Positions 38,544 to 43,044 of a stretch of 43,044 bases of DNA are shown here, in pieces. Origin of the DNA: Magnetococcales bacterium (GTDB lineage: Bacteria > Pseudomonadota > Magnetococcia > Magnetococcales > JADFWU01); contig JADFWU010000004.1 of assembly GCA_015234045.1 (NCBI GenBank), positions 1 through 43,044 on the forward strand, in the 5' to 3' direction. A model generated the notes under the pieces. It worked only from the letters and a program-made list of their open reading frames with translations. It did no database searches and was not told the DNA's origin. A program made the position numbers and the translations under genes. Position 1 is the stretch's first letter, and each line of letters begins with the position of its first letter.

Positions 38544-40217
38544 ATGGCCATCCATAAAAAAAACATGCTCGACACTACGTTAACAGATCACCAGAACCGA
38601 TTGAAAAACAGTGTAAATCGTCTTACGCGAATTATACAGAGTCACGCCAATGAAAACGGTTATATCAATACCGTGCCTCAGGAAATTCTCATCTACTTGC
38701 ATACACTCAATTGGCTGCGTGTTCATGGTCATCCCGATCATGTGGTAAAAATGATCCCCTTTGGTGCCAACAGTCCGCATGCGTATTTAATGCCTCTGTT
38801 TTCCGCCCTGCCCTCAGATAGTGATTTTATCAGACGCTATCTTGATCACTGGTTTAGTCAAAAAAATCAAGACTCCAGACGTGAACGGATACTTTGGTCG
38901 CTTTCCGCCTGCAACGCTGACAGAGATCTGTTGTCTAATGAAATCAATGCCACATGGCAACGCTTTAACACCCTGACCAACGATAAACAACAGCGCATCC
39001 GACTCATTCAGAAGCGCCAAAAACAGGAAGATCAAGACACCCTTGGCTCTTTGGACCAACAGCGCCTTGCATTGATTGATCAACTGCCAGACATCCACCA
39101 TAAACCCATTACAAAAATCGGCTTGATTCCGGTCATGAGCTGTCCTGAATCCTGTCCACACTGCATGTTTGTCTGGCGCACGCCCATGAAACAGACTCCA
39201 GATCCCGGCCCACTTTTCGAAGCAGTCAATAAACACACCCGCGCCACACTGTTTACCGGCGGCGATCTAACGCCTCATTTAAACCACTTCTACCGAGCCA
39301 TACGGCAAATGGACCAGCTCGGTCAGTTTGCCATTCTGCTCAATGGCAGTTTCGCCGAATCGGATAAAGCCACGGAACGCGTATTTCAAAAGCTGGATCG
39401 GGCTCTCAATCAACGCCCTGCCAATGCCGTTCCCGCACAAATAACGGTTCAGATCAGTTTTGATGAGTTTCATCAACAACGCATTTTCAATCGTCATGGC
39501 GAAGCTTACGAGCGCATCCCAGTCGAAAATATTGCCCGTATTGTCAACCAGGCTGTCCATTTTTCACGTATTCGACTCAGCCTGATTCATAAACAGAATC
39601 CGCTCAATTTTTCCAATGATCTATTCAAAAAGGGCGTGTTCGGTCGGCTGGCTGAAGCATTAGGAAAGAAAGGCCATACCGTAAAAGTTCTCCAGATCGT
39701 TCCTTCCCATCGGCCCAAAAAACATCCCATAACCGGTGTTAATGCACCGGTGATCCGTGAGGCGGTTTTTGTTCTTGAACATCAACCCAACCGCCCCGTT
39801 CACTTCATGAGCTCTACACTGGATGCTTATGGACGCGCCGCTCTGGTGGATGAGAGCGACTATGTAAATGAACGTGACTATCTCCAGACCATTCTCAACC
39901 ACGGTCCGCCAGCGGATGACGCATTCGACACCGATCCCATGGTGTGGTTCAATGGACGTATTACCCTTTTTTCAGCGATTCATATCGCTTTGGGAGATGT
40001 ATTACAGGAAGGATTTGATGCGGTAATCAATCGCTGGCACAAAGATCCACTGCGTCATGCACTGGAGCGCTTTGATCCTGTTCTTCTCAAAACATATGGC
40101 ACACTGTATGATGATCTTGACCAGATAAAAGCACGTGCAACTGGACCGCACTATCTGTTCCATCAGATCACAAAAACGCCAGAAGCACGATTGGCTTTGA
40201 CTAAGGCGTTACTCTAA
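38544..40217 (+). CDS. Unusual radical-SAM protein linked to a MNT/HEPN pair
   Basis: The 557-residue protein has an alpha-helical, charged N-terminal part (about 1-185), then LIPVMSCPESCPHCMFVWR with C200, C204 and C207 spaced C-x3-C-x2-C for a 4Fe-4S cluster, and TGGD (238-241) at the place of the SAM-binding GGE motif. Further strands follow (QISFDEFHQQRIF, LSLIHKQNPL, VLQIVPSH). The last 120 residues contain no further cysteine cluster. I do not recognise the subfamily, and the substrate is unknown. The stop overlaps the MNT start as TAATG, so it is cotranslated with the toxin-antitoxin pair. The start has no good ribosome binding site. Confidence 0.75.
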   Translation: MAIHKKNMLDTTLTDHQNRLKNSVNRLTRIIQSHANENGYINTVPQEILIYLHTLNWLRVHGHPDHVVKMIPFGANSPHAYLMPLFSALPSDSDFIRRYLDHWFSQKNQDSRRERILWSLSACNADRDLLSNEINATWQRFNTLTNDKQQRIRLIQKRQKQEDQDTLGSLDQQRLALIDQLPDIHHKPITKIGLIPVMSCPESCPHCMFVWRTPMKQTPDPGPLFEAVNKHTRATLFTGGDLTPHLNHFYRAIRQMDQLGQFAILLNGSFAESDKATERVFQKLDRALNQRPANAVPAQITVQISFDEFHQQRIFNRHGEAYERIPVENIARIVNQAVHFSRIRLSLIHKQNPLNFSNDLFKKGVFGRLAEALGKKGHTVKVLQIVPSHRPKKHPITGVNAPVIREAVFVLEHQPNRPVHFMSSTLDAYGRAALVDESDYVNERDYLQTILNHGPPADDAFDTDPMVWFNGRITLFSAIHIALGDVLQEGFDAVINRWHKDPLRHALERFDPVLLKTYGTLYDDLDQIKARATGPHYLFHQITKTPEARLALTKALL

Positions 40218-40633
40218 TGCCGAAAAGCAATCAGATCATGAACTGGGATGTAATCGTCCATTATCTGCGCGATCATCAGCCAAAACTATTGGCCATCTAT
40301 GGATTTGGTAGCCGGATGACCGGAGATGCCAACCAGCAAAGCGATTGGGATATCGGTCTCTTGTTTGATGGAAAATCTGACCCTGTCACACTATGGAATA
40401 TCGCAGAAAATCTGGCTGAACGCCTTGATAATGACGTCGATCTGGTCGATTTACGCACGGCTTCAGTTGTCATGCAATACCAGATTATCACCACCGGTAA
40501 ACGTCTTTGGACAAAAAATCACCATGCCGCACTCTATGAAAGCTTTATTCTGAGCAGTAAAACAGAACTGGATGAAGACCGAGCACTACTGCTTAATCGT
40601 ATTCAACAGGAAGGCACAGTTCATGGTAGATGA
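40217..40633 (+). CDS. mntA: MNT-domain nucleotidyltransferase, MntA-type antitoxin
   Basis: The 138-residue protein has the minimal nucleotidyltransferase motif: GSRMTGDANQQSDWD at 31-45 with D43 and D45, and a third carboxylate in DNDVDLVDL (D75 or near). In MntA/HepT systems this enzyme adds AMP to a tyrosine of the HEPN toxin and so silences it. Neighbour order here is MNT then HEPN, with an 11-base overlap, typical of such pairs. It overlaps the radical-SAM stop upstream. Both motif acids are intact, so it should be active. Confidence 0.88.
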   Translation: MPKSNQIMNWDVIVHYLRDHQPKLLAIYGFGSRMTGDANQQSDWDIGLLFDGKSDPVTLWNIAENLAERLDNDVDLVDLRTASVVMQYQIITTGKRLWTKNHHAALYESFILSSKTELDEDRALLLNRIQQEGTVHGR

Positions 40634-41069
40634 TGTATTGATCAATAAGGTGTCTATCATTGAACGCTGTGTTGCTCGCGCCAGAGAAGAGTATCAAAAA
40701 GATCCTGACAGCTTTTCAACGGACTATACCAGACAGGATGCCGCAATCCTGAATATCCAGCGTGCCTGTCAAGCGACTTTGGACATGGGACACCATTTGA
40801 TCCGGCGTGAACGGCTGGGCGTACCACAAAGCGCGCGTGATGTTTTTACTTTATTAAACAAAGGAAAATGGATTGATGAGACGCTATCTAAAACCATGAA
40901 ACAGATGGTGGGATACAGAAACATCGCTGTACATGAGTATCAGGAATTACAACTACCGATCACTATCTCAATCATCACCAAAAATCTGGATGATTTTCTG
41001 GATTTTTCACAAACAATTCTCAAACAAGACAGCGTTATAAGACAACAGCACACAACCAAGGCCATTTAA
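40623..41069 (+). CDS. hepT: HEPN-domain RNase toxin, HepT-type
   Basis: The 148-residue, all-helical protein (DUF86/HepT family) carries the R-x4-H-x-Y motif as RNIAVHEY, with R99, H104 and Y106; the Tyr is the site of AMPylation in characterised HepT. HEPN toxins cut RNA, often tRNA. The ATG at 40623 is preferred because AGGAAGG is eight bases upstream; it lies within the end of mntA. The convergent gene ends seven bases after its stop. Confidence 0.87.
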   Translation: MVDDVLINKVSIIERCVARAREEYQKDPDSFSTDYTRQDAAILNIQRACQATLDMGHHLIRRERLGVPQSARDVFTLLNKGKWIDETLSKTMKQMVGYRNIAVHEYQELQLPITISIITKNLDDFLDFSQTILKQDSVIRQQHTTKAI

Positions 41070-41076
41070 CGTGATT

Positions 41077-41979
41077 CTAAGGAATCATCCGAATATCTGT
41101 GATTCGATCTGATGGGGGTTTGTCTTCCTGGCCGTGCAACACGCGAACCAGGCGCAAGCCAATATCGGTGCGACGGGTTGTGAAGTGTTCAAAGCCTCGG
41201 TTTGCACAGCGCAGGCTTTTTTGTGGGCTGACCCAACCACCACCACGCAGTGCTCGATACACACTGGGCTTTTCTACCACTGGATTATTGCGTTTATGGG
41301 TCTGATAGCCGTCTTTTTCGTAGGCATCCACCACCCATTCCCAAACATTACCGCTCAAATCACCCACGCCCAAAACGTTGGGGGTACGTGTGCCAACAGG
41401 TTGGGTGAAATTACCACTGTTTCCGGCATACCAGCTCATACTGTCTGGATCACCACCACCGGCATAGCGCACCCGCTTACCCAGATTGCGGCACACATAT
41501 TCCCATTCCGCCTCAGTAGGTAGCCGAAAGCGATAAATACCCGGATAACGCGCATTCATCTTACGTACAAATGATTCCGCATCTTCCCAGGAAACACGCT
41601 CGACAGGATACTCTTCTCCTTTGCGGAAATTGGCTGGATTATGGCGCATCACCCGTTGCCATTGGCCTTGAGTGACCTCATAACGCCCCATCCAAAAACC
41701 GGAAAGGCAGGAATCATGCACCGGCCCTTCATCGGCATCACGCCCTTCAATCCGGGGTGGACTGCCCATCTTAAAACATCCACCAGGAATCCAGACAAAG
41801 GACATTTCACTATACGGCTCCGTCCAGTTTCGCCCAGGACGGGCCGGTTCCGCTTCAGGCGCTTCCCCAGTCATGGTATCAATGGGTTGCCATTCATTTA
41901 CTAAAAAGGCATGCACAGAGAGCGGGAAAGAGGCGATCAACAGAAATAAACAGGAGAGCGCATAACGATGGATCATCAT
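41077..41979 (-). CDS. Exported formylglycine-generating-enzyme-fold protein lacking catalytic cysteines
   Basis: The 300-residue protein starts with a signal peptide (about 1-24, SFPLSVHA). It has the SUMF1/FGE fold: FVWIPGGCFKMGS, YEVTQGQWQRVM, PVERVSWEDAESFVRKMN, RLPTEAEWEYVCR, GNVWEWVVDAY and RGGGWVSPQKSLRCANRG. In true formylglycine enzymes the last block has two catalytic cysteines; here the first is a serine (W-V-S) and the second is missing, so it is probably a binding rather than an oxidising protein. It overlaps the caspase-like stop as TAATG. The two are likely one operon. Confidence 0.85.
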   Translation of the reverse strand: MMIHRYALSCLFLLIASFPLSVHAFLVNEWQPIDTMTGEAPEAEPARPGRNWTEPYSEMSFVWIPGGCFKMGSPPRIEGRDADEGPVHDSCLSGFWMGRYEVTQGQWQRVMRHNPANFRKGEEYPVERVSWEDAESFVRKMNARYPGIYRFRLPTEAEWEYVCRNLGKRVRYAGGGDPDSMSWYAGNSGNFTQPVGTRTPNVLGVGDLSGNVWEWVVDAYEKDGYQTHKRNNPVVEKPSVYRALRGGGWVSPQKSLRCANRGFEHFTTRRTDIGLRLVRVLHGQEDKPPSDRITDIRMIP

Positions 41980-43044
41980 TATTTCTCGCCTCCGATTTTA
42001 GTCATACGAAGCGAAACAGGTGACGACAGGAAAGGATCTTGTTTTGGATAGCGCTCGCCAAGTTTTTTTCGGGTATAGTTCACGGCTTCCTGGAAATCAA
42101 CCCAACCATCCACAGGCTGGGTATCCGCCTCACCAAGCAGACCTTTAAGCAGGAAATAGGTAAATGCACCTTGCCTACCCAAACCATGGTATTCAGCCGG
42201 TTGAGAGATGGCTGCCATAGTCCACCCTTTAGTGGATTCAAACAGGCCTGTATTCAAACGCGCTGTGCTGTTATCCAGCGTAGGTGCAATTTTACATCCT
42301 TTCTGATCAGGCCGAAAACACGCATCAATCATTACGATGATATTTTTATTTGGTAGCTCTTCAAAGCGTTTTTTCATCCAGGATAGCGAGATGGCACGAA
42401 AGGGATCAATCTCATCCGGCTTAGTCTCAACAGGAAGAATCAGCGCATCCTGTCCGGTGGGATTATTCTCATCGTTCCATGCCAGCCCATGACCTGAGAA
42501 ATAGAATATCAATACAGCATTGGGATTCAGCTCACCTTGGCGCAGAAGCCATTCGATATCCCGTTGTATAACCCGGCGTGTGGCTGCGGTATCAATACGC
42601 AATCGGGCATGATTGGAATCATTGATAATCTGACCACGCCGTTCCAGGAGATTGAACAAATTATTCGCATTCCGATCAGCAAAATAACGACCACGCAGAT
42701 GTTGATAGCGGTAGATACCAACCATCACCGCAAACACATCAGAACGCTTCTGCCATGGGCTTAGTGGAGGTAGTGCACTGATGAAATCGTCCAGCACCTC
42801 ACGACCATCATCAATAGCACCGGTTTTTGCCCAAATCTGATGCGGAAGCAGCACCTCATAAGGAATCTCAGCGTTGGGATCGACTTCAGCCCGAACAATC
42901 TGATCTTTAGCGGCGATAAAGCCCGGCTCATCGGGATATTCCCGCGCCAATAGATTCACAGCTTTGCGAATCGCCTCCATCCGCTCACCACGGCGGAAAC
43001 GTTGCCAAAGCGCCTCAACCACATACTCTGCCGCCTGGGTACGC
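41979..43044 (-). CDS. Caspase-like (peptidase C14) protein, 5' end outside the window
   Basis: The reading frame stays open to the right edge, so the N-terminus is missing; the visible 354 residues start in a helical region. The caspase core shows AVMVGIYRYQHLRGRYFADRNA, the catalytic histidine in FYFSGHGLAW (near 42490) and the cysteine in MIDACFRP (near 42325), followed by TMAAISQPAEYHG and FTYFLLKGLLG. Bacterial caspases of this kind cut after basic or acidic residues and act in stress or defence; the substrate here is unknown. It is the first visible gene of an operon with the FGE-fold protein. Confidence 0.85.
   Translation of the reverse strand, partial: RTQAAEYVVEALWQRFRRGERMEAIRKAVNLLAREYPDEPGFIAAKDQIVRAEVDPNAEIPYEVLLPHQIWAKTGAIDDGREVLDDFISALPPLSPWQKRSDVFAVMVGIYRYQHLRGRYFADRNANNLFNLLERRGQIINDSNHARLRIDTAATRRVIQRDIEWLLRQGELNPNAVLIFYFSGHGLAWNDENNPTGQDALILPVETKPDEIDPFRAISLSWMKKRFEELPNKNIIVMIDACFRPDQKGCKIAPTLDNSTARLNTGLFESTKGWTMAAISQPAEYHGLGRQGAFTYFLLKGLLGEADTQPVDGWVDFQEAVNYTRKKLGERYPKQDPFLSSPVSLRMTKIGGEK

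Follow-up and report, generated by a model that had tools for sequence, protein, structure and literature searches.

Caspase-like domains have repeatedly been found together with domains of the FGE-sulfatase family in bacteria, with 33 metacaspase-FGE-sulfatase fusion sequences counted in 2012 (PMC3501461), and FGE/CLec domains have been found in conflict and DGR systems (PMC7159879, PMC10907252). Caspase homologues with a substituted catalytic dyad are known from cyanobacteria, where the accessible part of the report on pseudo-orthocaspases describes an exported "YS" type that is kept lineage-wide, has a proposed export signal, and has been suggested to play a non-proteolytic role (PMC6426788). 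Such bacterial combinations of caspase and FGE domains have hitherto been interpreted in terms of proteolysis, cell death, or conflict. PvdO of Pseudomonas is a periplasmic enzyme of the FGE fold that does not have the FGE cysteines, and c-FLIP(L) of animals is a cytosolic caspase-8-like scaffold without activity, in which the catalytic cysteine has been lost.

The pair of genes described here, found in Magnetococcales, brings together the same two domain families as the metacaspase-FGE-sulfatase fusions, but whereas the latter are single polypeptides of scattered taxa (PMC3501461), the Magnetococcales pair consists of two separately exported proteins that form a fixed pair in one order. With the YS pseudo-orthocaspases, as far as the accessible part of that report goes, the Magnetococcales caspase shares a dyad that is incomplete in most members, an export signal (a proposed one in the YS type), lineage-wide retention, and a suggested non-proteolytic role; it differs from them in that both dyad residues of the YS type are replaced (by Tyr and Ser), whereas in Magnetococcales the His goes and the Cys is invariant and joined by a second Cys, and in that no FGE partner gene is described there for the YS type, while the Magnetococcales caspase has an N-terminal TPR domain and an FGE-fold partner gene (PMC6426788). 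The resemblance to c-FLIP(L) is one of working only (a caspase fold that has lost catalysis and acts by binding), the two being related by fold alone. A separate, exported, order-wide pair with the caspase cysteine retained in a likely disulfide is probably new; a search of the open-access literature for Magnetococcus together with caspase, DUF323, or C14 proteomics returned nothing on the pair, and one for periplasmic bacterial pseudocaspases gave none.

The pair lies at the end of the window, by which we mean the whole stretch of DNA analyzed (43,044 bases of a Magnetococcales genome), with the following features on the minus strand:
41077 to 41979, minus strand: FGE-fold gene, 300 aa (PF03781, 158.9 bits, 2.4e-46)
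41979 to 43044, minus strand: part of the TPR-caspase gene within the window (3' two thirds, residues 176-529; PF00656, 53.6 bits)
41977 to 41981, minus strand: TAATG junction, caspase stop and FGE-fold start with one base in common (gap -1)
42021 to 42734, minus strand: Peptidase_C14/caspase-fold domain (residues 279-516), by profile and fold match
42489 to 42491, minus strand: codon for His360, at the site of the catalytic histidine (retained in only 9 of 41 orthologs)
42318 to 42320, minus strand: codon for Cys417, at the site of the catalytic cysteine (a Cys in all 41 orthologs)
42294 to 42296, minus strand: codon for Cys425, proposed disulfide partner of Cys417 (likewise a Cys in all 41 orthologs)
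41206 to 41208, minus strand: codon for Cys258 of the FGE-fold protein, the invariant cysteine within RGGGWVSPQKSLRC
41491 to 41493, minus strand: FGE-fold Cys163, likely disulfide partner of Cys258
41707 to 41778, minus strand: segment with FGE-fold Cys91 (41707-41709) and Cys68 (41776-41778), both invariant

Both genes are real and have one base in common, in the TAATG overlap that the sequence-only reading of this DNA had noted. The window edge falls inside the caspase gene, which is the first of the pair and is complete on the same contig (114,600 bases, of which the window is bases 1-43044), where it runs from 43568 to 41979 and comprises 529 codons (full protein at L004:1480-3069).

Orthologs of the caspase were found in 43 of 48 Magnetococcales genomes (its own included), in one piece in 41 of them, and are 40-51% identical to the window protein over the alignment, with one ortholog per genome. 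The FGE-fold ortholog follows directly downstream in 42 of the 43; the exception is G015, whose contig stops about 200 bases beyond the caspase gene. Of the five genomes without a caspase ortholog, four have a completeness of only 57-78%, and the fifth (G003, completeness 96%, contamination 6%) has a contig break within fba, which usually lies upstream of the pair. An apparent FGE ortholog in genome G030 is cut at a contig edge, as judged by eye from the sequence. The survey of genomes that the sequence-only reading had called for thus shows the two genes conserved side by side across Magnetococcales. About 250 genomes from elsewhere in the phylum yielded no full-length relative and only three matches, all restricted to the caspase domain, and the named full-length relatives are all Magnetococcales, namely MAGs and Candidatus Magnetaquicoccus inordinatus UR-1. 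Within the pair the gap ranges from -4 to about +100 bases, with start and stop often overlapping. The upstream neighbor differs between families (fba in 33, dnaE in 5, and accA in 1), and downstream neighbors are not conserved, being common to at most nine genomes; that the pair stays joined while its neighbors change makes the linkage stronger than general synteny and unlike that of a mobile defense island. Pairwise distances of the caspase and of its FGE partner are correlated at 0.90, and at 0.86 after allowing for fba, which is consistent with coevolution of the two sequences, although shared rates would fit as well. The two genes look like a lineage-specific, vertically inherited operon unit of Magnetococcales, and the earlier suggestion that the two proteins belong together is supported by the order-wide linkage, by the export of both, and by the covarying distances.

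In the window, the pair is approached from the other side by a MntA/HepT type VII toxin-antitoxin pair (40217-41069, plus strand; NCBIfam equivalogs, 101 and 159 bits), which runs toward the FGE gene and comes within about 8 bases of its end. HepT was not found in the other pair loci examined, so MntA/HepT is probably a local insertion beside the core operon. The gene before it (38544-40217, plus strand) encodes a 557-aa protein with a radical-SAM-like Cys cluster (CPESCPHC), for which Pfam gave no match and a radical SAM peptide epimerase only a weak one.

The N-terminus of the caspase, missing from the window and read from the contig beyond it, begins with MHSSTLFSVGLMLLVSLTLGLMPSATLAA, a Sec-type signal peptide, followed by TPR-like helices, a linker, and the C14 domain in a protein of 529 aa. 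Pfam TPR matches cover residues 55-126, and the AlphaFold model places helices at 34-229. The caspase-fold assignment is solid: the domain scores 53.6 bits against a PF00656 cutoff of 21.4, superimposes on MALT1 with a Z of 21.8 and an rmsd of 2.4 Å over 190 residues, and is matched by Pfam C14 in 34 of 41 orthologs at E ≤ 0.001. The FGE-fold protein starts with MMIHRYALSCLFLLIASFPLSVHA, a signal peptide, after which comes the C-type-lectin-like FGE-sulfatase domain (residues 60-279). Export signals are therefore carried by both proteins and not just by the one partner on which a signal peptide had been noted; the outcome that would have told against the earlier reading, a caspase N-terminus pointing to another compartment with no conserved linkage to the FGE gene, was looked for and not seen. 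Signal peptides in the 41 orthologs of each protein were judged from sequence with a simple hydrophobicity rule, and by this heuristic a cleavage-like motif follows the N-terminal hydrophobic segment in 41 of 41 full-length caspase orthologs and in 41 FGE orthologs, a strict threshold for the segment being passed by 39 and 33, respectively. By sequence and heuristic, then, the pair carries Sec signal peptides on both partners; with no lipobox in either, both products would most likely be soluble in the periplasm.

The sequence-only reading also held that the caspase His and Cys are present. This is true of the present genome, which has both residues of the orthocaspase/metacaspase His-Cys dyad (His360 and Cys417), but the histidine is the minority state in the order: its position is occupied by Leu in 26 of the 41 aligned caspases, by His in 9, by Trp in 3, and by Arg, Phe, and Asn in one each, while the flanking columns are Gly in 41 and 39 of 41. 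The definition of a pseudo-orthocaspase (a p20 with a substituted dyad) thus fits 32 of 41 orthologs and does not fit the window's own protein. On a caspase tree built without the His column, His and its absence are separated by at least three changes, some of the placements being weak. The TPR domain (25) and the linker hold most of the columns that are invariant in the caspase, and few of these columns lie near the catalytic site. Selection keeps both proteins, but in most lineages not for catalysis. Two other histidines were considered as substitutes and rejected: His320, conserved in 40 of 41, precedes a beta strand (321-325) and, going by known caspase topology, should lie at the opposite end of the fold from the active site, and His461 is found in only 22 of 41.

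In contrast to the histidine, Cys417 is present in all 41 orthologs, and so is Cys425, at a spacing of 7 residues in 40 sequences and of 8 in the window's own. The comparison set was 31 other C14 domains in which the His-Cys dyad is intact, 30 of them from the phylum sample and one from this genome, mostly best matches to the Pfam model rather than a random sample; in none of them does a second cysteine occur within 12 residues of the catalytic one. Mature caspases have exactly four cysteines in 33 of 41 cases, six in one clade of seven, and five in one; the six-Cys clade, which includes Ca. Magnetaquicoccus, has two extra cysteines nine columns apart. These (columns 245 and 254 of alignment A1, in L075, L077-L080, L082, and L084) were gained together, as fits pairing. 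Even and invariant sets of cysteines in exported proteins lead one to expect disulfides, and on our reading of the sequences Cys417 would be tied to Cys425 by such a bond.

It has to be noted that the same cysteine pair is open to a different model, our main rival reading, in which the protein is a working periplasmic caspase whose cysteine is locked to Cys425 when oxidized and freed by reduction, the FGE partner presenting substrates or inhibiting it, and the lineages without His being derived losses. Consistent with that, His360 and with it the full dyad are retained in this genome and eight others, including both genomes of the genus to which the complete 4.72 Mb assembly G010 belongs; Asp precedes the catalytic Cys in 39 of 41 orthologs, and Cys425 is found in all nine His-bearing members. 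The histidine is, however, missing in 32 of 41 orthologs that have lost neither the gene nor its partner, and few parts of the protein are less conserved than the catalytic region. We consider a redox-latched protease in the His-bearing species, the present one included, to be unlikely, if the strongest of the alternatives. For the same reason (His gone in 32 of 41, the protein otherwise kept), the earlier proposal that the FGE-fold protein is a sensor, substrate, or inhibitor of an active caspase finds no support as a general role. A tentative evolutionary account, which we think somewhat less probable than not, would have the caspase cysteine captured by a second invariant cysteine, the bond serving as a redox latch first and as a structural element after repeated loss of the His, in an exported, Magnetococcales-only scaffold with an FGE-fold partner.

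Membership of the partner in the FGE-sulfatase fold family is clear, with 158.9 bits against a PF03781 cutoff of 23.3 and FGE/PvdO structures matched at E ≤ 1e-15. Its AlphaFold model, made with 41 orthologs, has a pLDDT of 85, and the nearest solved structures are PvdO (5hha, 8.9e-20), followed by TvpA and formylglycine-generating enzymes; PvdO is also the top match of the window protein by sequence, while in a profile search of the PDB TvpA came best, followed by PorK/GldK and PvdO. The two copper-binding catalytic cysteines that follow the RGG(S) motif are absent in 41 of 41 orthologs, which means that the partner is not a formylglycine-generating enzyme. The FGE block RGGGWVSPQKSLRC indeed has no second Cys, as first read, and its sole Cys is not a catalytic one; the accompanying claim that the protein "has lost" its catalytic cysteines goes too far, there being no sign of recent loss when none of the 41 orthologs has them. 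None of the other FGE-domain blocks of this genome, read by pattern, has the catalytic pair either, so the absence is ordinary and does not single out this protein. Cys258 is invariant and has as its counterpart in formylglycine-generating enzymes a structural Cys rather than a catalytic one; the cysteines of LRC and EYVCR in the Magnetococcales protein correspond to a structural disulfide of human FGE (Cys346 and Cys235). By this alignment, a Cys163-Cys258 disulfide is likely, and Cys68-Cys91 is proposed as a second; exactly four cysteines are present in the mature partner in 40 of 41 orthologs.

The likeness to PvdO (best structural match, periplasmic, no FGE cysteines), which differs in having no caspase partner, raises the possibility that the FGE-fold protein is itself a periplasmic enzyme, performing a PvdO-like oxidation or another modification, with the TPR-pseudocaspase as its substrate-recruiting subunit. 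PvdO heads the matches by structure and by sequence, but the protein scores only 89.4 bits against a cutoff of 500 for the PvdO equivalog (NCBIfam, dihydropyoverdine dehydrogenase), and most of its invariant residues are fold-defining ones, which makes an enzymatic role improbable. A putative binding role is plausible. TvpA of Treponema denticola (2y3c) likewise has an FGE fold without catalytic cysteines; it is, however, a DGR variable protein, whereas the Magnetococcales gene has no reverse transcriptase or template repeat beside it and is conserved in sequence, and a DGR variable protein was rejected on these grounds. The 3' end of the FGE gene matched only itself among ten loci of this genome, and the only reverse transcriptase found there, on another contig, is group-II-intron-like as judged by sequence. 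PorK/GldK of the type IX secretion ring is also an exported FGE-fold protein, with a structural part to play, but it is a Bacteroidota lipoprotein without a TPR-caspase partner.

The reading of the pair as a conflict or programmed-death system, with an FGE partner that detects an invader and then licenses the caspase, on the pattern of NTP-dependent conflict systems and of DGR-diversified sensors, draws on the caspase-FGE associations and fusions known from such systems (PMC3501461, PMC7159879, PMC10907252) and on a match to the PADLOC caspase model at 41.7 bits. It is already largely contradicted by a pair that is order-wide, syntenic, exported, and present as a single ortholog per genome, that lacks a neighboring NTPase, adaptor domain, or reverse transcriptase and has no DGR copy of the 3' end of the FGE gene, and whose catalytic His is mostly lost; nor does the pair belong to the NTP-dependent conflict systems (VMAP ternary, EACC1-type caspases), with 51.2 bits against 140 for NF047832 (caspase_w_EACC1) and no linked NTPase or adaptor. 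We regard this reading as very unlikely.

Elsewhere in the genome, two convergent FGE-domain genes on contig C49 (L095:4755-6065, plus strand, and L095:6347-9250, minus strand), one of them adjoined by a MoxR-like AAA gene, have in common a 3' tail of 137 bases with 90.5% identity, in which 12 of 13 differences fall in the first two codon bases and change the residue (by eye), like DGR variable regions; neither a template repeat nor a DGR reverse transcriptase for these tails was found in the assembly. An exported single-chain caspase-FGE fusion (L006:6722-8572, plus strand, contig C29) keeps GGH and has no recognizable catalytic Cys. It was rejected as a conserved "Rosetta stone" because its full architecture is not found in relatives, only the FGE half having matches in the order, and it supports the association of the two domains loosely. 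The third caspase of the genome (L005:4987-6765, plus strand, contig C46) has a lipoprotein-like N-terminus (LTSCQSG) and intact GHG and DSC motifs, and its neighbors are a long, repetitive gene resembling filamentous haemagglutinin on one side and an OmpA-like gene on the other.

In the model that we favor, with a probability of roughly 0.55, one member of the pair would be an exported scaffold of TPR and pseudocaspase domains and the other, of FGE/C-lectin fold, its binding partner, the two together forming a probable constitutive complex in the cell envelope. The TPR superhelix and the caspase-fold domain would act mainly as a scaffold, the catalytic His having been replaced in most lineages, mostly by Leu, and the old catalytic Cys being retained as one half of a disulfide with the Cys 7-8 residues further on. 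The cysteine-paired FGE/C-lectin-fold protein, as the probable ligand- or glycan-binding partner, would dock on the caspase protein, and proteolysis would have ceased in most of the order. Some protease activity, switched on by reduction of the disulfide, may survive in the species that keep the His, nine with the present one. The export signals, the order-wide pairing, the residue losses, the invariance and even number of the cysteines, and the predicted caspase and FGE folds come directly from computation, whereas the disulfides, the physical binding, the lack of proteolysis, and the envelope role are inferences.

Magnetococcales keep the pair in the envelope while mostly dropping the residue that is essential to a protease, so that a caspase beside an FGE domain is, by itself, no evidence of cell death or defense. 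The orthologs, running from those that bear the His to those without it while the cysteine pair stays fixed, offer a natural series for the change from a caspase to a structural protein. In the magnetotactic cocci and their relatives, the pair is a core component that has gone unstudied.
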